A DNA stretch of 29,390 nucleotides, taken from IMG/VR virus record IMGVR_UViG_3300032053_000372, positions 1 through 29,390 of that record; one strand, 5' to 3'. The translations under genes and the position numbers were made by a program. Source of the stretch: a virus. Positions 14,351 through 27,085 of this stretch are shown here, one piece after another (position 1 is the first letter of the stretch; the number at the start of each line of letters is the position of its first letter). The notes beneath the pieces are model-generated. The model did not search any database and was not told the DNA's origin. It worked only from the letters and a program-made list of their open reading frames with translations.

Positions 14351-14491
14351 ATGGGAAGAAAACGAATATATAAGACCAAAGAAGAAATATTAAATGCCCG
14401 GCGGAAATGGGCGATTGAATATTATTATAAAAACCAAGAAAAATGTAAAAAGAAACGAATGGAACGATATTATGAAGAAATTAAGCACTGA
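14351..14491 (+). CDS. Mini-ORF preceding the homing endonuclease (46 aa)
   Basis: A 46-residue, strongly basic peptide, MGRKRIYKTKEEILNARRKW ... YYYKNQEKCKKKRMERYYEE, predicted all-helical. Its last 20 nt overlap the endonuclease start (ATG 14472) in another frame, so the two would be translationally coupled. A near-identical ORF in the same arrangement survives at 13212-13361, which shows that the pair moved as a unit. It may be an N-terminal DNA-binding piece split from the nuclease or a separate accessory peptide; both are inference. Confidence 0.6.
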   Translation: MGRKRIYKTKEEILNARRKWAIEYYYKNQEKCKKKRMERYYEEIKH

Positions 14492-15377
14492 TGAATTTAT
14501 TGCCAAAGCAACATTAATTCATGGTGATAAATATGATTACACGTTTGTAAATTATACTGGAACATATAATATAGTTTGTATTAAATGCCCATTTCACGGA
14601 AAATATTATCAGCCGGCCCACAATCATCTCATAGGACGAGGATGTATTTATTGTGCGGGTAATTTACAATCAAATACTAAAAATTTTATAGAAAAATCAA
14701 ACGCTATCCATAAAAATAGATATGATTATTCCAAAACAAAATATGTAAAAAATTCTAAAAAAGTAAAGATTATATGTAAGAATCATGGTGAATTTTTACA
14801 AACCCCATCTAATCATTTGCGAGGTAATGGATGTGGCATATGTGTTAAAAATATACGTTCAAATACCAATGAGTTTATAAATAAAGCAATAAATATTCAC
14901 CAAAATAAATACAATTATTCTAAAGTGATTTATAATGGTGCTCACAATAAAATAATTATTATTTGCCCAAAACACGGAGAGTTTGTTCAAACTCCAAGGA
15001 ACCATCTCAATGGACAAACATGTCCTTCATGTACTTACCGAATATCCAAACCGGAAAAAGAATTTTTAGACTATTGCAAAATTACTATTAACAATAGACA
15101 AAAATATATATGTGGTTATAATGTAGATGGGTATGATCCAAATACAAATACTATTTACGAATTTCTTGGCAATTACTGGCACGGAAACCCCAAAATGTTT
15201 AATTTTAATGATTTAAACCGACACTGTAAGAAAACATTTGGAAATCTTTATAACGATACCATATCAAAATTTAATATTTTAAAAAATAATGGATATAAAG
15301 TAATTTATGTATGGGAACAGGAATGGACATTATGGAATAAAACCAAAAATTATAATCTTCCAGTTATAAATTTTTAG
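14472..15377 (+). CDS. Homing endonuclease: zinc-binding repeats + VSR-like nuclease domain (301 aa)
   Basis: The start at ATG 14472 is preferred over 14394, because the extra N-terminal codons lie inside the mini-ORF and do not resemble the family. The decayed copy also starts here. Three ~60-residue repeats follow the pattern F-I-x-K-[AS]-x-x-I-H-x-x-[KR]-Y-[DN]-Y, then I-x-C-x-x-H-G-[EK]-[FY], N-H-L-x-G-x-x-C-x-x-C, with zinc-ligand Cys/His. The C-terminal ~110 residues (ISKPEKEFLDYC ... VDGYDPNTNTIYEFLGNYWH ... KFNILKNNGYKVIYVWEQEW) have the D/E/H arrangement of phage EDxHD/VSR-like homing nucleases. It lies on the opposite strand to the neck operon, between gp13 and gp14, converging with gp13 and overlapping it by 4 nt. 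It is probably a mobile selfish gene. Confidence 0.85.
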   Translation: MKKLSTDEFIAKATLIHGDKYDYTFVNYTGTYNIVCIKCPFHGKYYQPAHNHLIGRGCIYCAGNLQSNTKNFIEKSNAIHKNRYDYSKTKYVKNSKKVKIICKNHGEFLQTPSNHLRGNGCGICVKNIRSNTNEFINKAINIHQNKYNYSKVIYNGAHNKIIIICPKHGEFVQTPRNHLNGQTCPSCTYRISKPEKEFLDYCKITINNRQKYICGYNVDGYDPNTNTIYEFLGNYWHGNPKMFNFNDLNRHCKKTFGNLYNDTISKFNILKNNGYKVIYVWEQEWTLWNKTKNYNLPVINF

Positions 15378-16706: not shown

Positions 16707-18023
16707 ATGTCATCCACATTAGACTATAGATCATTTTTCCGCGAAAAAGATGGCGAACAGCGCCAATATTGGGGCAGTGAAGCCGCAGGAGCATTGATTG
16801 TTGCCCAAAATACTGGACGAATTTTACTTGTTCATCGGTCGAAAAATGTCGATCAACCAGGAACATGGGGAACTATTGGTGGAAAAGTTGATTTTGAAGA
16901 AACTCCCCAAGAAACTATTTCCAGAGAGGTAGAAGAAGAAAGTGGGTTTGATGGAAATTACAAAATATCTCATTTATATACTTACAAAGATGGAGAATTC
17001 AAATATCATAATTATCTTCTAATTATAAAATTCGAGCAAACTCCTATGTTAAATTGGGAAAACGATACTTCTGCATGGGTCGAATATGGAGAGTGGCCAG
17101 ACCCGCTTCATTTTGGGATGGAAGAACTGATAAAACACGCTGGACATAAAATCAAACGTGTGATAGACTTGATAAAAAAGAAGAATGCCGAAATCCTTGA
17201 ATCTATGGATGTACCTCCACCAGCTATAATTCAACACGTTGGATTGCCAAAAACCAGTGGTATGATGGACAAACAAGCAATGATCAATGCTTACATTGTT
17301 GCTGCTACCCTTTGGGGTGAGGCGCGGGGGGAAGGCGAACGAGGAATGCAGGCAGTGTTAAATGTTATTATGAATCGAACAAAACAAGATTTTTCGAAAA
17401 CAAAAGATATTGTTTTGAAACCAAAACAATTTTCGATGTGGAATGGAGTATCTAATCCCGAAGAAGCATCTATACAGTTAGCAAAAAAGATGTGCGATGA
17501 TAAAACATATCAAACCATTATTCGTTTGGTTGATCTGGCGTCCAAAGGAAAATTACCAGATATTACAGGCGGGGCGACTTTCTATTTCAATCCAAAAAAA
17601 GTAAATCCATCTTGGGCTAAGAAATTGAGTTATACCATCACTATTGGAAACCATAAATTTTACAAAATTTCAGATAAATCGCAACAGATAAAAGAAAATG
17701 ATGCGACAATTTCTAAGCAAGGTCTTGTTGATGATGGTATCTATGGATATGAAATGAGGACAAACACATCGTATATTCGTTATGGATATGAACCCAATAC
17801 GAAGATATTTTATCTCTACAACATCACAACTCTTAATATTGATGACCGAAATAAAGGATATGCTAAATCACTCCTGGAAACTTTTTTTCAGTTTATCAAG
17901 CAGAATGGGGGGTCATTAAATACCGGAAGCTATACCACTTCGGGTATGGCTTATATTGAACCCGTGGTGAAAAGACTTTCAAAACAATATGGGATAAGAT
18001 TGGTGAATGATAGAGAAGTATGA
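16707..18023 (+). CDS. Three-domain fusion: NUDIX hydrolase + SleB-like cell-wall hydrolase + GNAT-like domain (438 aa)
   Basis: Residues ~25-150 form a NUDIX domain with a perfect box at 59-81 (G-x5-E-x7-R-E-V-x-E-E-x-G-F), typical of nucleoside-diphosphate-linked substrate hydrolysis. Residues ~190-322 match the SleB / Hydrolase_2 cell-wall hydrolase family: AATLWGEARGEGERGMQAVL, with the Glu of WGEARGE as likely catalytic residue, then NVIMNRTKQDF, QFSMW and GGATFYFNP. Residues ~345-438 look like a GNAT acetyltransferase fold with the R-N-K-G-Y-A acetyl-CoA loop at 381-386. There is no signal peptide or membrane helix. The stop overlaps the next gene by ATGA. Opposite strand to the neck genes. 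Each domain is recognisable; their union in one chain is unusual and the combined role is unknown. Confidence 0.85.
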   Translation: MSSTLDYRSFFREKDGEQRQYWGSEAAGALIVAQNTGRILLVHRSKNVDQPGTWGTIGGKVDFEETPQETISREVEEESGFDGNYKISHLYTYKDGEFKYHNYLLIIKFEQTPMLNWENDTSAWVEYGEWPDPLHFGMEELIKHAGHKIKRVIDLIKKKNAEILESMDVPPPAIIQHVGLPKTSGMMDKQAMINAYIVAATLWGEARGEGERGMQAVLNVIMNRTKQDFSKTKDIVLKPKQFSMWNGVSNPEEASIQLAKKMCDDKTYQTIIRLVDLASKGKLPDITGGATFYFNPKKVNPSWAKKLSYTITIGNHKFYKISDKSQQIKENDATISKQGLVDDGIYGYEMRTNTSYIRYGYEPNTKIFYLYNITTLNIDDRNKGYAKSLLETFFQFIKQNGGSLNTGSYTTSGMAYIEPVVKRLSKQYGIRLVNDREV

Positions 18024-18412
18024 TTAAACTTGTAGAACTTTTAAGAAAAGACAAAGCAAAATTTAAGGAGTATCCTCTGGCGGGGGAGATTGTAGATGGT
18101 CGTACTGTTTTAGACAATATAGACAATACATCTTCTATTGGGGCATCTTTGTATAATTATAAGGTTCTTAATGGAATACGTGAAGTTCCGATGTCAGATT
18201 TTCAAGTTTCGGGCAAACATTACAGTGTAGAAGGTACTCAACGCATACAACAACTAGCAGCTGAGATTCAGCAATCCAGAGAAATATCTCCGTTAATTGT
18301 TGTGGTTGATAAAGAAGGCCCATATATTTTGGAAGGTTCGCATAGAATAAGTGCCCTCAAACTAATAGGAGCAGAGTCTTTCCCGGCTTTGGTTGTAATT
18401 GATTATGATTAG
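18020..18412 (+). CDS. ParB-like domain protein (130 aa)
   Basis: It starts MIKLVELLRKDKAKF, and its ATG overlaps the previous stop by 4 nt. The C-terminal half carries a ParB/sulfiredoxin-fold signature: IQQLAAEIQQSREISPLIVV, then YILEGSHRISALKLIGA and FPALVVIDYD. The EGSHR-x-x-A motif corresponds to the GxxR-type nucleotide-binding loop of ParB N-terminal domains. Some relatives are nucleases or CTPases; activity cannot be told from sequence alone. The N-terminus resembles those of other island proteins (M-I-K-L-x-x-L-L). It is coupled to both neighbours, indicating one operon. Confidence 0.7.
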   Translation: MIKLVELLRKDKAKFKEYPLAGEIVDGRTVLDNIDNTSSIGASLYNYKVLNGIREVPMSDFQVSGKHYSVEGTQRIQQLAAEIQQSREISPLIVVVDKEGPYILEGSHRISALKLIGAESFPALVVIDYD

Positions 18413-18920
18413 CTTAAAAAATATTTTATTTGAAAATGTGTATGAATATTTTTATCATGCCACATTACCAGAGAATTTACCAGAAATAGTAATACACGGA
18501 CTTATTCCATCGAAAAATCCACATTGGGGTGGTGACTTGGGAAAATTTAGTTATGGAAAAGTTTGTATATCTGATAGATTTAGGGAAGCCAACTATTATG
18601 GAAATATTTTATGGAGAGACAACCCCAATAGATATAGACCAATTTTAAGGTTTAAATATAATAAACTTCGCGTCATATCCGACCCCAGTAAATCTGCTGC
18701 ACATGATTTCTATGTCGAATATCCTATTAAAGCTAAGTTTGAAATATTTGTTTATAATGAAAACACAAAATATAAACAAGATTCAAATGGAGATATTTGG
18801 TTCAATGATAAAACCGGGGGGTGGAGATTTCTTACCAAAGACATTGCCGATGGTATTGCTACAGGGGAATGGGACAAAGAAAATGAAGATGAAGATGAAG
18901 AAATGACTTACCTACCTTGA
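18405..18920 (+). CDS. ADP-ribosyltransferase-like protein (171 aa)
   Basis: I choose ATG 18405 (MISLKNILFENVYEYFYHAT), which overlaps the ParB-like stop by 8 nt; a TTG six bases earlier is possible. After a leader of the [LI]-x-E type (ILFE), the sequence YFYHATLPENLPEIVIHGLI has the H-x-T and x-I-x-x-x-G-[LF] pattern of ART/RNA-2'-phosphotransferase folds. KVCISDRFREANYYGNILWR and a later FEIFVYNENTKY segment could form the remaining core strands. The acidic tail (ENEDEDEEM) is unusual. By analogy with T4 Alt, a packaged enzyme that modifies host proteins is conceivable. The ART assignment is moderate; no catalytic Glu is assigned with certainty. Confidence 0.6.
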   Translation: MISLKNILFENVYEYFYHATLPENLPEIVIHGLIPSKNPHWGGDLGKFSYGKVCISDRFREANYYGNILWRDNPNRYRPILRFKYNKLRVISDPSKSAAHDFYVEYPIKAKFEIFVYNENTKYKQDSNGDIWFNDKTGGWRFLTKDIADGIATGEWDKENEDEDEEMTYLP

Positions 18921-19607
18921 TTCGAGAGTAGGCTTAAACCAAATATCTTTGGCTTTGATTACTTCCCATAAAAACGGATGGTTTTGTAGAATAGATATTG
19001 CCAGTTTCCAATCAGCACTAAATGCCTTACAAAGCTCAATCTGAACCATTTCTTTGGTAACTGGATCGAACTCCTTAATGGTTTGAAATACATCAATAGC
19101 ATTGCCAACTTCTTCGCTTATAGCAAAGTTTAATTGACAAGAAAATCGAATGGCGCGAAAGATGCGAAGACGATCTTCAATAAATCTATCAACTGCCTTC
19201 CCCACTGAATTAATATGCTTATTAACAATATCTATCTGTCCACCAAATGGATCGATTAAATTCGGAGTCCCGACTTCCCGCGCAATGGCATTCATTCGGA
19301 AATCGCGCCGCGCCAGATCCTCTTCAATGGTCTTAGCAGAAGTAACATTATCGGGGTGTCTTGCGTCTGTATAAAACGACTCTTTACGAGCAAGGGTAAA
19401 ATCAACCGCTCCCAGTGGTTCTAATTTTGCCCGAATACTCACATATTCTGGTCGTTCCTGATAAAAAGTAGCACCTTGCTCTATCAGGTATTGACGCATC
19501 GCGTTGTAATCGGCTGCAATAACGGCAAAGTCCCGATCTTTGGCGGGTTTACCCATCAATTCGTTGCGAATTGATCCACCAACTTCAAAAATGCGAATAT
19601 CAGTCAT
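18912..19607 (-). CDS. CCA-adding / poly(A) polymerase-type nucleotidyltransferase, short form (231 aa)
   Basis: The start is ATG 19607 (MTDIRIFEVGGSIRNELMG). The class II CCA-enzyme head is clear: GG-S-I-R-N-x-L-M-G, the catalytic D-x-D at 24/26 (KDRDFAV), a third carboxylate near D69 (GAVDFTL), RRDFRMNAIA at 100-109, DPFGGQIDI at 119-127 and the EDRLRIFRAIRFSCQLNF motif near 144-161. The family adds CCA to tRNA 3' ends or poly(A) to RNA. At 231 aa it lacks the C-terminal body/tail of full-length enzymes (~400 aa). A tRNA-repair or RNA-tailing role is plausible. The coding end overlaps the plus-strand ART-like gene by 9 nt. A consensus sigma70 promoter abuts the start. Confidence 0.9.
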   Translation of the reverse strand: MTDIRIFEVGGSIRNELMGKPAKDRDFAVIAADYNAMRQYLIEQGATFYQERPEYVSIRAKLEPLGAVDFTLARKESFYTDARHPDNVTSAKTIEEDLARRDFRMNAIAREVGTPNLIDPFGGQIDIVNKHINSVGKAVDRFIEDRLRIFRAIRFSCQLNFAISEEVGNAIDVFQTIKEFDPVTKEMVQIELCKAFSADWKLAISILQNHPFLWEVIKAKDIWFKPTLESR

Positions 19608-19761: not shown

Positions 19762-20304
19762 ATGATCAAACTAAAATCATTGCTTATAGAGTTAAAAGAG
19801 AAGATTGAAGTACCAGCTGAAGCGGGAACCGTTCCCATCCCTCCAAATCATCTTCGTTTGTATCACTATACTGACGCACCCCCCGAGGTAATACGAAAAG
19901 AAGGATTGAAATTATCCCACGCCAAAGGTGTTACCTATGGCGAACCAAATTCGATATGGGCATCATTGGCGAAACCAAATGACCAAAAAATTTACGTTGA
20001 ATTTTCAATGGCAATTAATGACCCCAGGTTCAATAAATGGTTGGGAGCTGCGCCAGACCCCCTAGACGGAGTAGAATACTATAAAAATCGCAATAATGAC
20101 TTCACTATTGGTGGAGATATAAAACCTTCAGAGTTTATTGCTATCCACGAGCCATGGCACCATACTTACAGGTATCTTATCGACGCAAATAAAGTCGATG
20201 ATACCTTAAAAGGTGAATATGATTATTTATTAAAAGATGACCTCCACCCCGATGAAAAGAAAGCAATCTTGGTAATCAAACACAATTTTGGGAACTATGA
20301 TTAA
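19762..20304 (+). CDS. ADP-ribosyltransferase-like protein with capsid-targeting-like N-terminus (180 aa)
   Basis: The N-terminus MIKLKSLLIELKEKIEVPAE has the form of T4 capsid-targeting peptides, ending in an L-I-E prohead-protease-type site at residue 10. The following domain starts RLYHYTDAPPEVIRKEGLKL, the H-Y-T then I-x-x-x-G-L signature of ART/phosphotransferase-fold proteins. It continues with TYGEPNSIWASL, KIYVEFSM and a C-terminal GDIKPSEFIAIHEPWHHTY. Length and fold suggest a small mono-ADP-ribosyltransferase-like effector. The gene is isolated on the plus strand and converges with the 602-aa gene. Confidence 0.6.
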   Translation: MIKLKSLLIELKEKIEVPAEAGTVPIPPNHLRLYHYTDAPPEVIRKEGLKLSHAKGVTYGEPNSIWASLAKPNDQKIYVEFSMAINDPRFNKWLGAAPDPLDGVEYYKNRNNDFTIGGDIKPSEFIAIHEPWHHTYRYLIDANKVDDTLKGEYDYLLKDDLHPDEKKAILVIKHNFGNYD

Positions 20305-20315
20305 GATTATCGTTA

Positions 20316-22124
20316 TTATCCCATTCGAGTAAAATTAACAGGATCAAACACTTTTTGTTCGTGAGAATGACGAATATATTCCTTCATTTCAGGATTTCTT
20401 AATGCTTCGTCAAAACATTCTTTCCAAGGCTTAATAATAGGATTTCCTTGTTCTGTTAACTCTGTTTCACTATGTAATTTACTAGCTAGAGTTTTCCATT
20501 TAGAAGCCGCCTTTTTACGATGTTTTTCTCGATCATCTTTATGATTATTTCTAAAATGAACTTCAAATTTCAATCGAGTATTATCTTCAAAAATCGCCAC
20601 GATGTGACGATTGCCTTCATATAGGCGATATTCTTTGTGAAGAAGATGATAGTCCTCGTTGATATTTTCGGTGTATCCCGTGTGAACTCCGCTTTGATAA
20701 TTATGAAGATTCTGGGGCATTTTCTTTTCTAATACTGCTAAAGGTATATCTATAAATCTCTTGCCTGACGCCTGAACAGTTACATTAATTCTTGGTCCGG
20801 GATACCCATCTTCACCCACATTATTATCGCTATCTTCTGGATTTTCTGGATCGTCTTCACCCATGATTTCCCATACACCACGAACAATAATAGATAGGTC
20901 TTCCGGCTTTAAATGCCAAGTTTGAATTTCAATATCTGTACCGTCGGTTTTCATAACCTTCCATCGCCAATATTTCATAGCAAATTCCCGAGCATCACGA
21001 GTTCCACTGCCATACGCAATATACACGGCATCTTCAGTTTGCTTTGGATCTTTATATACTTTGTCTTCTACAAGCTTTTTAATGATAATGTCTGACGGAC
21101 CTTTATATTTGGCTCCCGACATATTATCCCATCCTGCAAGTTCATCATCATCCAAGCGACCATCATCAATTAAATTCTGCTTAATTTGGTCTTCATAACT
21201 GGTAAGTTCATCTGGCTCATCTTCATTAATCCCAAAATGTGAAATAATTTCATGAATTAAAGAACCAATGACAACTGCTTCGTGATTACTATCACCAACA
21301 TTACCATCAGCAAATACCGTACTTCCAGTTTCATCAATCCACCATTCGCCTCGGTCATGTTCTTCGGATACAACATTTACAATTTCATTGGTAGATTCTG
21401 CTTCATATTGTACTTCGAATTCGGGGGTTGACCTTACAAAGCTGGAAAATCGTTCATAAAGTAATGAACATTGCTCTTGAAGAGTATCAGAACCAGTCCT
21501 ACTATCCGAGTAACTATCTTCTGGGGTTGGAGCATTTATCGTGGTCGGTTTCATAGACAAAGGTAATTTGCTACTACCCGTAGGCTTAGGACTTATCGAT
21601 GGTTCGGGGGTTTCACCCGGTTCGGGAGCATCGGGTTGAATCTTTGTCTTGAGATATTCAGACAACGCACATAAATGTTTGCAAAGTCCTACGCCATAAT
21701 CACCAACCCCACCTTGACTGCGTGGTCTCCATTTTCTACCATTATTTTGATTACCAGATGGTGCCTCGGGATATTTGCCTATACGCCCAACACCATCTTT
21801 AGCATTATTATATGCATAGCGATAACGATAATCAGGACAATCGCAATCAATCATACATTCCAAATCTTCGGCATTATCCTTATGTGAAACATCTTCCTTG
21901 AAAAATTGTACATACCCATGCCAAGGGTTGCCAGTCGTAGAGGGGTCGGATTTATATCTAAAAGTCCATGTTTCATTACCATCCAAAGTAGTTACTTTCA
22001 AAGGACGAACATTGACATCACTCTTCCCTCGCTGTATTCTTCCAGATTCACTTCCACCGAGAAGGTCTCTAAATGATCTTCTTTCAGTCAAAACAGTTCG
22101 CATTATTTTTGAAAATGAAATCAT
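20316..22124 (-). CDS. SWIM-type zinc-finger protein with cleavable-looking N-terminus (602 aa)
   Basis: It starts MISFSKIMRTVLTERRSFRD, with an L-T-E motif at 12-14 like prohead-protease sites. Residues 94-150 contain C-x-C ... C-x-H (IDCDCPDYRYRYAYN ... GVGLCKHLCALSEYL), the SWIM zinc-binding pattern, here with a 51-residue insert. A Pro-rich linker lies at ~165-200. An acidic middle region includes SLIHEIISHFGINEDEPDEL and a WRWKVMKTDGTDIEIQTWHL segment. The C-terminal part is charged and helical and ends VFDPVNFTRMG, which echoes the capsid protein (VYDPVNFTPRRG). SWIM domains bind DNA or proteins; the whole-protein role is unknown. The start overlaps the previous stop by 1 nt (TAATG). 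Confidence 0.7.
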   Translation of the reverse strand: MISFSKIMRTVLTERRSFRDLLGGSESGRIQRGKSDVNVRPLKVTTLDGNETWTFRYKSDPSTTGNPWHGYVQFFKEDVSHKDNAEDLECMIDCDCPDYRYRYAYNNAKDGVGRIGKYPEAPSGNQNNGRKWRPRSQGGVGDYGVGLCKHLCALSEYLKTKIQPDAPEPGETPEPSISPKPTGSSKLPLSMKPTTINAPTPEDSYSDSRTGSDTLQEQCSLLYERFSSFVRSTPEFEVQYEAESTNEIVNVVSEEHDRGEWWIDETGSTVFADGNVGDSNHEAVVIGSLIHEIISHFGINEDEPDELTSYEDQIKQNLIDDGRLDDDELAGWDNMSGAKYKGPSDIIIKKLVEDKVYKDPKQTEDAVYIAYGSGTRDAREFAMKYWRWKVMKTDGTDIEIQTWHLKPEDLSIIVRGVWEIMGEDDPENPEDSDNNVGEDGYPGPRINVTVQASGKRFIDIPLAVLEKKMPQNLHNYQSGVHTGYTENINEDYHLLHKEYRLYEGNRHIVAIFEDNTRLKFEVHFRNNHKDDREKHRKKAASKWKTLASKLHSETELTEQGNPIIKPWKECFDEALRNPEMKEYIRHSHEQKVFDPVNFTRMG

Positions 22125-22597
22125 TACTTTATCCTCTCCAAAATATCATCGGGTGAAATAATTTCCCCTCTATTACCAAACTGAATTTTGTAAGGTGGAT
22201 TGCGAAAATTTGTCTCATCACCAATTTCAATTTTATCTTCTTTAATCTTTATCCCGTGTATAGAAGCATTAAAAATCCATCTACGTTGAGCACTCGTCAG
22301 TTGTTTCCATGAAGTGTTAAACGTATCAAAATAAAGAAGATTGTCATCATGTTTAATAACGATTCTTGACCATCCTTTATCATACAACATTCGTTTCAAT
22401 ATCATAGAACGGTTCTCAAATGAGTTGGCATCTGTTTCGTCTGGCGGGTTGATGTTAAAATATCTTGCAATCCATTCCGCATGAGTATCTAGTACATGAT
22501 GACATTCCCCGTTTGTCTCCAACCATCCTTCCAATGCTCCACGAATTGAAGCTTCGGTAATAAGTAACGTTGGTATAAAATGTGCCAATTTTATCAT
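22124..22597 (-). CDS. Uncharacterised protein with capsid-targeting-like N-terminus (157 aa)
   Basis: It starts MIKLAHFIPTLLITEASIRG, again M-I-K-L with a hydrophobic stretch ending in I-T-E. The body reads GALEGWLETNGECHHVLDTH, AEWIARYFNI, KGWSRIVIKHDDNLLYFDTF, QLTSAQRRWIFNASIHGIKI. I recognise no family. It is coupled to the SWIM-protein gene (1-nt overlap), so both are probably co-expressed and may share a destination such as the capsid interior. A GATATTTATA element ends 11 nt before the ATG. Confidence 0.65.
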   Translation of the reverse strand: MIKLAHFIPTLLITEASIRGALEGWLETNGECHHVLDTHAEWIARYFNINPPDETDANSFENRSMILKRMLYDKGWSRIVIKHDDNLLYFDTFNTSWKQLTSAQRRWIFNASIHGIKIKEDKIEIGDETNFRNPPYKIQFGNRGEIISPDDILERIK

Positions 22598-22856: not shown

Positions 22857-23624
22857 TCATAACTCGTTTTCTCTAATCTTTCGCTTGTAATATTTTATTG
22901 CTGTCATACCAATGCCATATTTTTCACATAATTGTAATGATGAATATTTATAAGATTGTATGTCTTTTATAAGAAAAACTTTCTGTGTTTTCATTTTGTT
23001 TTTAGTATCTGTTATTTTTCGCTTTGTCTCATCAGACATAGATCCTCTAATTTTTCCTTTCATATCGCAAGGATGAGAAAAACATTCTATGGGTCTATTT
23101 GATAAATCTTCGCGGCGACTATTATATTTTTTCTTACCTTCTCGTTTCCCATATCTATCAACAAACCATTCCAATGTATATCTTCCTTTGGCTTTATCCT
23201 TCTGTTTTTTGATGGCATCATTTGTATGTGTCTTTCCATACATCCCATTATTTTCTCCACGATTTATTATCTTCATTTTTTCTATGAAAGCATCTCGATT
23301 AGGATTGTGTGTTATATTATCACCACCTTCAGCAACAGAACCTATGTTATATCCTTCATCTCTAACATATGGTTTCAATGTATCAAGATAATACTGCTCT
23401 CGCTCAAACAATTTTTGTTGATCTGGTCCTACTTCCTCAAGTATAGAAAATGAAAATTTGTCTTCTCCATGAAAATTCCACGAGTGTTGTAGTTTTGGAT
23501 TACAATGACGATTAGCTCTCAAATCCCGCCGATGAATTGTCCATCGCCACTCAATGTCCTTCGCACTTCCAATGTAAAATTTACCTGTTATATTATTTGT
23601 AATTTTGTATATTCCGCTATTCAT
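22857..23624 (-). CDS. GIY-YIG homing endonuclease (255 aa)
   Basis: I take the start at ATG 23624 (MNSGIYKITNNITGKFYIGS). The open frame extends back into the capsid gene, but that part overlaps the terminator and promoter and is not family-like. The catalytic domain has GIY at 3-5, the partner YIG at 17-19, R26-equivalent Arg within EWRWTIHRRDL, and the conserved Glu in FEREQYYLDTL, followed by GYNIGSVAEGGDN. Later come GMYGKTHTNDAIKK and SDETKRKI (NUMOD3-like DNA-binding motifs), and a C-terminal SYKYSSLQLCEKYGIGMTAI helix-turn-helix-like segment. Placement directly after the capsid gene is typical of T4-like phages carrying free-standing homing endonucleases. It has its own sigma70-like promoter. 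Confidence 0.9.
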   Translation of the reverse strand: MNSGIYKITNNITGKFYIGSAKDIEWRWTIHRRDLRANRHCNPKLQHSWNFHGEDKFSFSILEEVGPDQQKLFEREQYYLDTLKPYVRDEGYNIGSVAEGGDNITHNPNRDAFIEKMKIINRGENNGMYGKTHTNDAIKKQKDKAKGRYTLEWFVDRYGKREGKKKYNSRREDLSNRPIECFSHPCDMKGKIRGSMSDETKRKITDTKNKMKTQKVFLIKDIQSYKYSSLQLCEKYGIGMTAIKYYKRKIRENEL

Positions 23625-23631
23625 GTACATA

Positions 23632-23660
23632 AATATAACAGAATTCTTCGGCTTAGTCAA
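23632..23660 (-). promoter_or_regulatory. Near-consensus sigma70 promoter of the GIY-YIG gene
   Basis: On the minus strand TTGACT (23655-23660), a 17-nt spacer and TATATT (23632-23637), with an extended -10 TGT. Ten of twelve bases match consensus. Seven nt separate the -10 from ATG 23624. The earlier in-frame ATG at 23630 begins 1 nt after the -10, so 23624 is the usable start. It again predicts a leaderless transcript. Confidence 0.7.
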
Positions 23661-23687
23661 CTTTTTATATATATAATGTACAAAAGA

Positions 23688-23711
23688 AAGGACTTCCCGG
23701 AGGAAGTCCTT
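23688..23711 (-). terminator. Rho-independent terminator after the capsid gene
   Basis: A perfect 10-bp stem (aaggacttcc / ggaagtcctt) with a 4-nt loop is followed on the minus strand by TCTTTTGT. It lies 28 nt past the capsid stop and upstream of the GIY-YIG promoter, so it should end the scaffold-capsid transcript and insulate the endonuclease. Confidence 0.85.
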
Positions 23712-23739
23712 GTTGTTTAGATATTTAGGATTGCGTAAA

Positions 23740-25497
23740 TTATACCTGGTTGGTATCACTTACATATATTAATCCATAAAATTCGGGTCTGACTATTTTC
23801 TTGGCATAACGTGTCATGACCCCGCGTCTCGGTGTGAAATTGACGGGATCATATACCAATGGGGTCTGGATGAGTGGAATGTATGGAGCATATACAGCAC
23901 CCGTCTCAAGGAAGTTATTTCCACGGAATCCCATAAGGATCAAGTTTTCCTGCATATAAGGATTTTTATATACTTGGAAACGGCTTGCGAAGTTACCAAC
24001 GCGGCTTACGCCCATGGCGAACTTAGCGGAGTCACCGTCAGTATTGACCACGAATCCAGGGATGGATTCAAGGATGGTTGCTACATCTGGTCCTACGACC
24101 ATGAAGTTAGCTCCACCACGGAGGGTCAACTGATGAATCTTGTTGGATACTTTCTGAACCTTGTTGCCAAGAGTTTGATACCAAGTTGCCTTGGTGTAGT
24201 AACCACCCGCGCCTGCCGTTGCCTGATCAACAACTTCATAGCTGTTCAATCCAGTCTTGATGATTTCACGGTTGAGACGTGCGCTCCAACGTTCCTTATT
24301 GATATTAGGAGCATTGACAATCAACATATCAAGAATTTCAAGGTCGATTTCCATTGATACGTATTCAGACAACAGAGCAGTCAATTCTGCTTCTGCGTCA
24401 ACGCTGTGATAAGCGTTCAAGTCTTGTGCGAGTTCGGGAGTCCAAACAGCCTTCAATTTACGGGTCTTAGCCACGATTGGCTCAGATCGCAATTCAAGGT
24501 TGACTTCGGGAATACCGATGTCTTTATTCAAACCTGTTTGTGTTCCTACACTACCACCGTCATCAATCTTACCAAGCTTATCTTCAAAGTCGCCACGAGA
24601 CGTATCACGAGGCTGCAAGCTTAATACCACCGATGCGGTATGAAGATTCGTTGCAAAGTTTTGCATGGCAGTGACCGAAGAGCTAACTACGAACACGGCT
24701 TCTGTTCCGCTAATGCGGGAGAATCCAGGGAACCACGTTACCCATTGCGCAGCAGCATTGGCTATATTAACTGGCATGAAGGTACGAACATTGTTCAAAT
24801 CAGGATACGATCCCGAATAAGTAATGGTCGCAGTCGTCAAACCATTGGTTGTCAAGGTAAACAAATACCCCGCGGCCAATGATGCTGAAATACTTGAATG
24901 CACTGGGTCATTGGAATTTCCAGTATCAAAGTTGATGTCAACAAGGGATGCTGTACCAACCGTCACAGTAAGGTTATTTACCCGCGTGTCGTTGACTGTA
25001 TAAGCATTACGGCCTGGACCATAGAGACCACCAGCTGGATAGTTGGTAGAACCAAGTTTCCATGTACTTTCGGGATCATCCGAACCACTTAAACCACCGA
25101 ACAGAGACGAATACTTCGTGCTAGAGTCAGCGGTGAATACGCCAGAGGTTGAACCGTATTTGAAATCCAAGTAGAATACCAGCCCGGATGGGAGGTTCAT
25201 AGGTTGGACCGAGACGAATTCTTTGGCGGCGATTTCAGCAAACACACGGCGAACCAGTGGAAGTGCCACACCTGCCCATTGTTCAGAATTGCTCTGAGTT
25301 CCGGTTATAGATGACTCTTCAATCAGTTGCTTTGCTTGGTTTTCGAGCAATACGCTCATATTGCTTTTCTCAATGTCATTTTTCAATCCTTCTAGCAAGC
25401 CAGTTTTATCCCACTTGGAAACGAGACCTCTTGTTTCCGTCATGAGTCTAGCCTGTGGATTTAATGCATTGGTTAACAATTCTTTTATGTTTTCCAT
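23740..25497 (-). CDS. 23: Major capsid protein, gp23-like (585 aa)
   Basis: It starts MENIKELLTNALNPQARLMT. The segment NQAKQLIEESSITGTQ gives an L-I-E site at residue 60; T4 gp23 is cut by the gp21 protease after residue 65 (F-L-T-E). The mature part then reads LVRRVFAEIAAKEFVSVQPM, NLPSGLVFYLDFKYGS, closely paralleling T4 gp23 (MVRRAIPNLIAFDICGVQPM, NSPTGQVFALRAVYG). Further matches are RKLKAVWTPELAQDLNAYHS, SMEIDLEILDMLI, GANFMVVGPDVATIL, and the C-terminal YAPYIPLIQTPLVYDPVNFT, PRRGVMTRYAKK. HK97-fold subunit of the head. The ~110 residues around 125-300 (TNYPAGGLYGPGRN ...) form an insertion-like region. Co-operonic with the scaffold gene 28 nt upstream; a strong terminator follows. Confidence 0.95.
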   Translation of the reverse strand: MENIKELLTNALNPQARLMTETRGLVSKWDKTGLLEGLKNDIEKSNMSVLLENQAKQLIEESSITGTQSNSEQWAGVALPLVRRVFAEIAAKEFVSVQPMNLPSGLVFYLDFKYGSTSGVFTADSSTKYSSLFGGLSGSDDPESTWKLGSTNYPAGGLYGPGRNAYTVNDTRVNNLTVTVGTASLVDINFDTGNSNDPVHSSISASLAAGYLFTLTTNGLTTATITYSGSYPDLNNVRTFMPVNIANAAAQWVTWFPGFSRISGTEAVFVVSSSVTAMQNFATNLHTASVVLSLQPRDTSRGDFEDKLGKIDDGGSVGTQTGLNKDIGIPEVNLELRSEPIVAKTRKLKAVWTPELAQDLNAYHSVDAEAELTALLSEYVSMEIDLEILDMLIVNAPNINKERWSARLNREIIKTGLNSYEVVDQATAGAGGYYTKATWYQTLGNKVQKVSNKIHQLTLRGGANFMVVGPDVATILESIPGFVVNTDGDSAKFAMGVSRVGNFASRFQVYKNPYMQENLILMGFRGNNFLETGAVYAPYIPLIQTPLVYDPVNFTPRRGVMTRYAKKIVRPEFYGLIYVSDTNQV

Positions 25498-25525: not shown

Positions 25526-27085
25526 TCAGATTACTTTTTTTGATGTCTTAATTCCTGCGAGTCTTTGGAATTTCGATATCATTTGATTTGCCTTACTCTC
25601 CGAGATAATTTCTCTGGAAGGTTTGGTCGATCCGACTGCGCCTGATGCGAGACCTTCAGTGATGCTTTGAACATTAGAATTGATTTTGGTCTTCTTCTTA
25701 ATGTCGCTGCCACTGAAATTCAATGACTCGGCAAAGTTTGCGTAGGTCAGTTTAACTTCACGAACATTTTTGGCGAGGTCAAACATTTCAACGATTCTCA
25801 TCTTTTGAGAATTGTTCATAATGAATTCCTTAAACAGCTTGTTCGTGTAAAGCAGTTTGGCATTCAACAAGTTAACCTCATTAAGTTGTACTTTAACATA
25901 CTTAATGACCTCTTCGGCTTCATTAAGTTGTTTTTTGAGAGCGGAGTTCTCTTCTAACATTCCACCCGGAGTTGAAAGATTGTCCTTGGTAGCATTTTTT
26001 GCTTGATTTGGACGTGTCGCAGTACTTGCTTCCTTAGCAGTCACTTTTGCATCTGTCGCCGAGGGCATTCCGGTTTCGGATTGACCTCCCGAACCGTTTC
26101 CTGCGCCCATACCGGGAGTAGAAAGGTTCGTCTTGGTAGCATTCTTTGCTTGATTTGGACGAGATGCGGTACTTGCTTCCTTAGCAGTCACTTTTGCATT
26201 ATCCGTGGTTGGGAATCCTTCCCCCGCGAGTCCACCCGATTCAATCTTGGAAGATGAACTTGCGCCCGATGCTGGTTTCTTATTAGCAGAACCACCGGCT
26301 TTACTACCACCGATTCCAGATGATGCGAGTTTGGTATCCTCGTTAATCTTTTCTTCATCTTCATCGTTAATCTTTCCTTCTTCCTCTTCTCCAATCTCTT
26401 CCCTGAGACTCTCTAAAAGTTCATTCAAATCCACATCTTCATCCGCTTCATCGCCCATTGGCGGTACTTCGGATGGTGGTGGTGCGCTTGTGTCCGGTGC
26501 TCCTGGTGCTCCCGCTCCCACTAATCCCGGTGCTCCTGGTGCTCCCGCTCCCACTAATCCCGGTGCTCCTGGTGCTCCCGCTCCCACTAATCCCGGTGCT
26601 CCAGCGTCTCCCGCCTGCGGAATTGGTTGGCCGCCCGGTGCTCCCGGGCATGGAATTGTCCCCGGAGGACATACAGCTGGTGCTCCCATTGGAGGTGCCG
26701 TTGGTGCTCCCATTGGAGGTGCCGTTGGTGCTCCCATTGGTGCTCCCATCGGAGGTGCCGTTGGTGCTGGCGCTTCACCCTGGGGTGCTCCCATATCATC
26801 ACTATCTGGTTCGGCGGGTGGTTGTTCGCCACCAACATCGGATTCGAGCTCTTTGATGAGTTCATCAATCTCTTGTTCCGATAGATTTTCTTCTGCTGAT
26901 CTCATTCCCTCTTCTTCTGCTGGCTGGGACTCACCCTGCGCAGCGTCTTCTTTCAATTTTTCTGCGAACATCGCTTGGTATCTCTCGGAGAATACTTCTT
27001 CAAGTGATACTTTTGCATTGGCAAGTGCTGTCTGACGTACTGCTTTTGCATCGGCGATAGCTTCTTTCAAAAGGTTACTATCCAT
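25526..27085 (-). CDS. 22: Prohead core / scaffold protein, gp22-like (519 aa)
   Basis: Gene order (immediately before the capsid gene) and composition support a T4-type prohead core protein. The N-terminal helix is MDSNLLKEAIADAKAVRQTA. An acidic Glu-rich region follows, then a Gly/Ala/Pro collagen-like stretch with three GLVGAGAPGAP repeats, and two ~50-residue repeats around VTAKEAST.[ST]RPNQAKNATK. A coiled coil (LKKQLNEAEEVIKYVKVQLN, EVNLLNAKLLYTNKLFKEF) precedes a C-terminus ending KFQRLAGIKTSKKVI. Several [LI]-x-E sites (LNE, ITE, ISE) suit digestion by the prohead protease during maturation. T4 gp22 is 269 aa, so the low-complexity centre roughly doubles the length. The ATG has an AAGGAA Shine-Dalgarno. 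Confidence 0.8.
   Translation of the reverse strand: MDSNLLKEAIADAKAVRQTALANAKVSLEEVFSERYQAMFAEKLKEDAAQGESQPAEEEGMRSAEENLSEQEIDELIKELESDVGGEQPPAEPDSDDMGAPQGEAPAPTAPPMGAPMGAPTAPPMGAPTAPPMGAPAVCPPGTIPCPGAPGGQPIPQAGDAGAPGLVGAGAPGAPGLVGAGAPGAPGLVGAGAPGAPDTSAPPPSEVPPMGDEADEDVDLNELLESLREEIGEEEEGKINDEDEEKINEDTKLASSGIGGSKAGGSANKKPASGASSSSKIESGGLAGEGFPTTDNAKVTAKEASTASRPNQAKNATKTNLSTPGMGAGNGSGGQSETGMPSATDAKVTAKEASTATRPNQAKNATKDNLSTPGGMLEENSALKKQLNEAEEVIKYVKVQLNEVNLLNAKLLYTNKLFKEFIMNNSQKMRIVEMFDLAKNVREVKLTYANFAESLNFSGSDIKKKTKINSNVQSITEGLASGAVGSTKPSREIISESKANQMISKFQRLAGIKTSKKVI
25978..26200 (-). repeat. Two-copy internal repeat of scaffold gene
   Basis: About 75 nt at 25978-26058 and 26123-26200 share long identical runs (for example gacttgcttccttagcag-like stretches on the plus strand). 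They encode the A-K-V-T-A-K-E-A-S-T unit twice, separated by a Gly/Ser linker. The duplication is recent enough for most codons to be identical. Confidence 0.8.
26496..26594 (-). repeat. 33-nt tandem repeat (three copies) encoding GLVGAGAPGAP
   Basis: Three identical 33-nt units (plus strand ggtgctcctggtgctccc followed by gctcccactaatccc) sit in the scaffold gene. They are flanked by shorter ggtgctcccat repeats at 26680-26770. The stretch is GC-rich compared with the rest of the window. Confidence 0.9.

Follow-up and report, generated by a model that had tools for sequence, protein, structure and literature searches.

Phages and conjugative elements encode polyvalent proteins, which are predicted to enter the host together with the DNA (Iyer et al., 2017, PMC5512222) and whose lysozymes have been proposed to act on peptidoglycan during entry (PMC5512222). 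The conserved part of the T-even internal proteins is the capsid-targeting CTS (PMC9026906, PMC3012670). For the CTS of T4 IPIII, positions 4 and 7 matter for targeting and positions 8 and 10 for processing (PMC9026906), and the T4 protease gp21 cleaves after L/I-X-E (PMC9026906, PMC3012670). Phage NUDIX proteins are generally inferred to target ADP-ribose- or NAD-type molecules or caps (Iyer et al., 2022, PMC9503650). Here we describe a 438-aa phage protein which, judging from its sequence, is probably a capsid-targeted polyprotein; cleavage in the prohead would split it into enzymes of one domain each, which would leave the particle together with the DNA.

The window, i.e., the whole stretch of DNA analyzed, is a 29,390-base IMG/VR record of a T4-like phage with a gp23-type capsid gene. 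The ORF listing and translation give the 438-aa protein an ATG start and a single unbroken frame (Table 1), the latter as stated in the first-pass annotation of this DNA, which was made from the letters alone. Pfam finds a NUDIX domain (PF00293) at residues 26–142 (E 1.8e-13) and a Hydrolase_2 domain (PF07486) at residues 208–319 (E 3.9e-18), and PHROGs concur with Pfam. Two of the motifs read by the first-pass annotation, an intact NUDIX box at residues 59–81 and the WGEARGE of Hydrolase_2/SleB at about 203–209, are where it had placed them. The box is complete (G59-x5-E65-x7-R73-E74-x-x-E77-E78-x-G80), and together with the Pfam match and Foldseek matches to Nudix structures it satisfies the criteria for the Nudix superfamily. 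Those for Hydrolase_2/SleB are met by the PF07486 match and by the Glu of WGEARGE (E205), which is invariant in an alignment of eight sequences. A sequence search against solved structures returned pyrophosphohydrolases, and SleB (4f55) at E 2.4e-4. The combination of NUDIX and SleB had been called puzzling, but polyvalent proteins already offer examples of such a mix of domains (PMC5512222). The full-length AlphaFold model consists of three folded blocks with low-confidence stretches between them (residues 164–187 and 324–330, pLDDT<50), and residues 1–17 are also of low confidence. The absence of a signal peptide had been noted as well, and none is apparent to us, by eye only and without a predictor.

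The C-terminal part has no Pfam match, while the homolog L032 has a weak Pfam GNAT match at the corresponding place (E 0.002). Modelled alone from 12 homologous sequences, the C-terminal domain reached a pLDDT of 86 and a pTM of 0.79 (AlphaFold). The top PDB matches of this model are GNAT enzymes with a Foldseek probability of ~1.0, yet with a TM of only ~0.5 and an E of 0.002, and its BFVD matches are viral GNAT proteins. The R/Q-x-x-G-x-G/A loop of GNAT is present as RNKGYA (residues 381–386), where an acetyl-CoA-type loop had been claimed. That claim is therefore supported by the motif and the fold matches, and weakened by the TM value and the missing Pfam match. Structure prediction, which had been named as a check, thus backs the NUDIX fold by AlphaFold and Foldseek, and on the model the C-terminal part is a short, divergent GNAT-like domain whose acetyltransferase activity is not proven. 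As a single query this domain gave no tblastn match in phages and none in the contig scan; its relatives turned up only with an alignment query.

Table 1. Features of the window discussed in the text (positions in the window; a slash marks a candidate cleavage site).
Feature	Position	Strand	Basis
Putative NUDIX / Hydrolase_2 / GNAT-like polyprotein ORF, 438 aa	16707..18023	+	ORF, Pfam, homologs
Y7-RSFFR-E13, capsid-targeting-like N-terminus	16725..16745	+	T4 IPIII register, hydrophobic at -6, -3, -2 from E
NUDIX hydrolase domain, residues 21-156	16767..17174	+	Box 59-81 at 16881-16949; Pfam, PHROGs, Foldseek, structure-sequence search
I163-L164-E165/S166, candidate prohead-protease site, linker 1	17193..17201	+	Linker 164-187 pLDDT<50; junction enrichment
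Hydrolase_2 (SleB-like peptidoglycan hydrolase) domain, residues 194-320	17286..17666	+	Pfam, PHROGs; WGEARGE 203-209 at 17313-17333
I328-K329-E330/N331, candidate prohead-protease site, linker 2	17688..17696	+	324-330 pLDDT<50; junction enrichment
GNAT-like domain, residues 340-438	17724..18020	+	RNKGYA 381-386 at 17847-17864; model, Foldseek; weak Pfam GNAT in homologs
ParB_N-like protein, 130 aa	18020..18412	+	Weak Pfam, E 0.024; N-terminal tag MIKLVELL, no canonical site in tag register
171-aa protein, tag MISLKNILFE/N	18405..18920 (18399/18405 ORF)	+	YHAT motif suggests ART-like, without Pfam support
180-aa protein, tag MIKLKSLLIE/	19762..20304	+	YHYT motif suggests ART-like, unconfirmed
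602-aa protein, tag MISFSKIMRTVLTE/	20316..22124	-	Tag
157-aa protein, tag MIKLAHFIPTLLITE/	22124..22597	-	Tag
T4 gp23-like major capsid protein	23740..25497	-	QLIEE/SS aligns with relatives' ISE/A and VSE/A, inferred maturation cleavage
Putative scaffold, start MDSNLLKE/A	25526..27085	-	Adjoins capsid gene

The NUDIX domain as a lone query matched 3 contigs (57–70% identity). An alignment search gave 19 loci and a GNAT alignment search 18, with overlap between the two sets, and about 18 distinct multi-domain homologs were found on other contigs. Independent contigs carry the same NUDIX–Hydrolase_2–GNAT-like fusion at 53–61% identity, and the ORF is therefore not a chimera. The window is a metagenomic fragment and could for that reason be suspected of an assembly artefact that fuses separate genes, the outcome by which the first-pass annotation could have been refuted; the same order in one frame on many independent contigs contradicts this, and we give the artefact practically no credence. 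A search for the same architecture elsewhere had also been suggested, and besides these homologs it returned none in named phages: the full NUDIX–Hydrolase_2–GNAT chain is absent from these and no database record covers 80% of it. A cellular origin was considered and rejected; the genome-contig scan yielded only Hydrolase_2 relatives.

Shuffling of domains across the family can be observed directly. The wall-hydrolase slot is occupied by Hydrolase_2 in the window protein and in L033, L034, L035, L037, L039, L041, L042, L073, L076, and L080, by Phage_lysozyme in L032, L040, and L045–L048, and by a domain of ~95 aa without an assigned identity in L085 (4423–6411). ART-PolyVal is inserted in L041, L042, L045, L046, and L085 (E 1e-21 to 1e-23), and a CCA-adding enzyme is added in L033, L034, and L076. 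L073 and L076 have an additional ART and two uncharacterised segments, L046 has an additional N-terminal GNAT-like segment, and L048 is without the GNAT part. The longest homologs reach about 1,350 aa. Another contig group (L003:6732–8390 and near-identical loci) encodes a fusion of Polyphosphate kinase 2 (PPK2) and Hydrolase_2 behind a MRNLLTE tag.

The 438-aa protein contains just three [LI]-X-E motifs, ending at E165, E330, and E391, and the first two are in its two linkers. E330 is invariant among the Hydrolase_2-type homologs. In a first set of 14 proteins, [LI]xE was found in 24 of the 33 junction linkers, a number that none of 5,000 linker shuffles reached (mean 7.9, maximum 17). The site density was 0.025 per residue in these linkers (27 in 1,071) vs. 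0.0059 in the domains (40 in 6,792), and with gaps of 0–6 residues between [LI] and E the linkers contain 13, 27, 11, 6, 13, 5, and 4 sites, respectively. Linkers without the strict motif mostly have V or M at P3; when V, M, and F are allowed at this position, 29/33 fit (shuffle mean 12.6, maximum 21). A second homolog set showed the same, with 15/21 linkers fitting the strict and 20/21 the loose motif (shuffle maxima 11 and 15 in 10,000). We placed the junction limits with patterns that we devised ourselves, and those of the second set only after having looked at its sequences. The shuffle counts moreover overstate the significance because the sequences are related and not independent. All five ART/hydrolase-slot junctions depart from the motif, reading I-T-K-E or I-T-T-E, and the linker between the domains of the PPK2–Hydrolase_2 fusion is likewise without [LI]XE. 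It is plausible that V at P3 would be acceptable to the protease of this lineage, since the capsid site aligns with both ISE/A and VSE/A of relatives.

The CCA enzyme fused in L034 is preceded by LLME/ESNATPEQL, and as a separate gene in G004 it starts with MIKLKDLLLE/DVYKNKLLME/SRATPKQL, therefore the motif precedes the CCA domain in both layouts. Behind its MINLKLLME/ tag, the protein P0002 (L040:8339–10930) has three parts, of which the first is a 2H phosphoesterase with weak similarity to Acb1, the second is ART-like, and the third is a CCA-adding enzyme; LQE/A, then IHE/I and LKE/F, and then LME/R stand between the parts. P0002 also has motifs within its domains, and the presence of a motif alone is therefore no proof of cutting. 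On a 607-kb phage contig with Peptidase_S77, a NUDIX domain (L049:7428–8705) is flanked by LME/T and LHE/S, and this layout therefore also occurs in a very large phage.

A polyvalent protein might also be packaged in the head and delivered uncut, with only the N-terminal tag in use and the junction motifs incidental. There are precedents in the 250-kDa Dar protein DarB of P1, which is targeted to the capsid by its N-terminus (PMC9024508), and in the N4 virion RNAP, which is packaged unprocessed (PMC5512222), and the ART/hydrolase junctions and the PPK2–Hydrolase_2 fusion have no canonical sites. We nevertheless find uncut delivery unlikely, as the enrichment is specific for junctions and for spacing in two sets, two of only three motifs in the 438-aa protein fall in linkers, and the motif is retained when a domain shifts between fused and separate genes.

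Starts resembling MIKLKxLLxE were observed in 63 of 302 called genes from 11 contigs, 53 of them with [LI]XE within 18 residues, while only 1 of 1484 internal methionines used as control fits. At positions 4, 7, 8, and 10 the tag has mainly L, L/I, L/I, and E, respectively, which is the register of the T4 CTS. The 438-aa protein starts with MSSTLDYRSFFRE and has the T4 tag register, but P3 is F (F-R-E) and not L/I. Of the 18 polyproteins, nine fit the T4-register pattern and nine do not; among 24-aa control windows, the share that fits is 4%. The stand-alone NUDIX relative L050 has the N-terminus MDNIKSFQQYLSE/SDD, and gp242 of Salicola phage SCTP-2, also a stand-alone NUDIX protein, has RILFE/S near its N-terminus. 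Nine consecutive genes in L062:3972–7626 (G009 83972–87626) have a different common N-terminus like MKxRxxFVSNSSSSSF, the role of which is unknown.

The gene for the 438-aa protein sits beside head and neck genes, adjoining a neck/adaptor gene, and overlaps in series with the next two ORFs on the + strand in an operon-like layout (Table 1). This operon had been said to continue with a ParB-fold and an ART-like protein, for which there is weak ParB_N support and no Pfam support for the ART. The G003 homolog of the ParB_N-like protein starts with MIKLRDLLKE/N. No phage relative was found for the tagged 602-aa protein. The tRNA nucleotidyltransferase at 18912–19607 (-) is cut down to the head domain and has no MIKL tag, whereas in relatives the CCA enzyme is complete and either fused or tagged. 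Free-standing homing endonucleases of the HNH type (14394–15377, +) and the GIY-YIG type (22857–23759, -) are also present, the latter coming after the capsid gene. The putative scaffold contains GAPGAPGLVGAG repeats, and GC is locally raised there (0.54 at 26001–27000). The nearest named relatives of the capsid protein are from Flavobacterium phage immuto and Microcystis phage Mel-JY01 (49–51%), and there is no clear Shine-Dalgarno upstream of 16707. A Bacteroidota host would be a guess from these two observations only, and is not claimed.

Stand-alone phage NUDIX proteins and SleB-type endolysins are common, and the protein could be a cytoplasmic, non-virion enzyme of infection in which a housekeeping NUDIX is joined to a lysis enzyme. 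This is very doubtful given the position beside head and neck genes, the tags in the sister operon, the lack of an evident signal peptide (by eye) for a lysis role, and a lysis slot that is interchangeable while the linkers retain protease motifs. Many phage wall hydrolases are located on tails. A protein that pierces the wall from the tail or baseplate and carries accessory domains would fit with this and with the adjoining neck/adaptor gene, but no homolog has a tail-type domain, the NUDIX, GNAT, and CCA domains require cytosolic substrates, and the neighbours carry capsid-targeting tags, which makes this possibility fainter still.

The capsid-targeted polyprotein would need a protease, and Peptidase_S77 was observed in G009 (NUDIX-lysozyme form) and G016 (long chain of L081), the two largest contigs with the chain or its core. 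The G009 protease is a head maturation protease (phrog_207, E 6.5e-44) whose gene (L061:17016–18749; G009 77016–78749) is split by a LAGLIDADG intein, and that of G016 has the same split layout within one ~598-aa frame. No gp21-family protease was found in the 29,390-base window fragment or in the 82-kb fragment G017, which is near G009 and G016 in size.

We favour the cut polyprotein because of the junction-specific [LI]-X-E enrichment, the T4-register tags on 63 genes, and the Peptidase_S77 in G009 and G016. Against it stand the F-R-E at the N-terminal site, the 9/18 polyproteins off the pattern, the ART junctions, the PPK2–Hydrolase_2 linker, and the lack of a protease in the window. The first-pass annotation had offered either an early multi-enzyme effector or a polyprotein cut by the prohead protease; the sequence evidence favours both together, with no experimental support.

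In the proposed mechanism, the N-terminal tag would take the entire chain into the prohead core, where a gp21-type prohead protease would cleave the linkers between the domains behind [LI]-X-E. Cleavage would yield equal numbers of three units of roughly 12–19 kDa each (NUDIX, peptidoglycan hydrolase, and GNAT-like), to be packed with the DNA and to reach the cell by way of the narrow tail tube. Once inside, the NUDIX unit may break down RNA caps or signals of the ADP-ribose or NAD type and the GNAT-like unit may acylate a host target (unknown), while the hydrolase unit could open the peptidoglycan locally during entry. Tagged sister genes might deliver ARTs, 2H phosphoesterase, and CCA-adding enzymes likewise. 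Packaging, cutting, ejection, substrates, and activities are all inferred, and there are no virion proteomics. With slightly less assurance, we also think it likely that in some T4-like phages one tag carries an interchangeable string of counter-defence enzymes, which the maturation protease cuts before DNA packaging.

If this is true, the head-maturation protease has a second role in processing polyproteins, which is a strategy generally associated with eukaryotic viruses, and a route is suggested by which large multi-domain payloads could leave via a narrow tail tube. The rule of MIKLKxLLxE tags plus [LI]XE junctions could serve as a finder for injected effectors in uncultured, mostly unannotated phages, and it is directly testable by mass spectrometry.

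The domain mix is already known from polyvalent proteins, and the CTS with L/I-X-E from T4; the new part is the inferred protease-cut layout. A literature search without subscription papers and preprints found no multi-enzyme chain with a prohead-protease motif at its junctions. Polyvalent proteins likewise string unrelated enzymes together, and the domains found in them include those of lysozyme, PF07486, GNAT, ART, and Pol-beta nucleotidyltransferase (PMC5512222). With several unrelated enzymatic domains of polyvalent-type families on one polypeptide the 438-aa protein satisfies their domain criterion, and its delivery with the DNA is an inference. Their release is proposed to occur via embedded metallopeptidases, whereas the 438-aa chain has no peptidase and its linkers carry the prohead-protease motif. 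Among named phages, the NUDIX domain is closest to the stand-alone jumbo-phage proteins of SCTP-2 (gp242), Munch, and PA5oct (34–41% identity); gp242 is not fused to other domains, and those of Munch and PA5oct are known only as NUDIX matches or annotations. Phage NUDIX proteins for which packaging in the virion has been predicted (Iyer et al., 2022, PMC9503650) are similar in that they adjoin or are fused with myovirus head functions and in their virion lysozyme clusters, but the available part of that paper contains no NUDIX–hydrolase–GNAT chain or protease-cut polyprotein. In phiKZ and SPN3US, the prohead protease cuts many head proteins, ejection proteins included, behind a short motif that ends in X-E (PMC10052503, PMC9026906), and the 438-aa chain carries such motifs as well; the cuts reported for SPN3US, except self-cleavage, remove N-terminal propeptides and do not separate enzymes. 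With T4 IPI-III and Alt the protein appears to share the tag register (hydrophobic 4, 7, 8; E10), although only half of its family fits, and it shares the L/I-X-E motif and an arrangement in which the tag is conserved and the cargo hypervariable (PMC9026906, PMC3012670). These T4 proteins have one protein per tag that is trimmed at its ends, whereas the 438-aa chain would give several enzymes.
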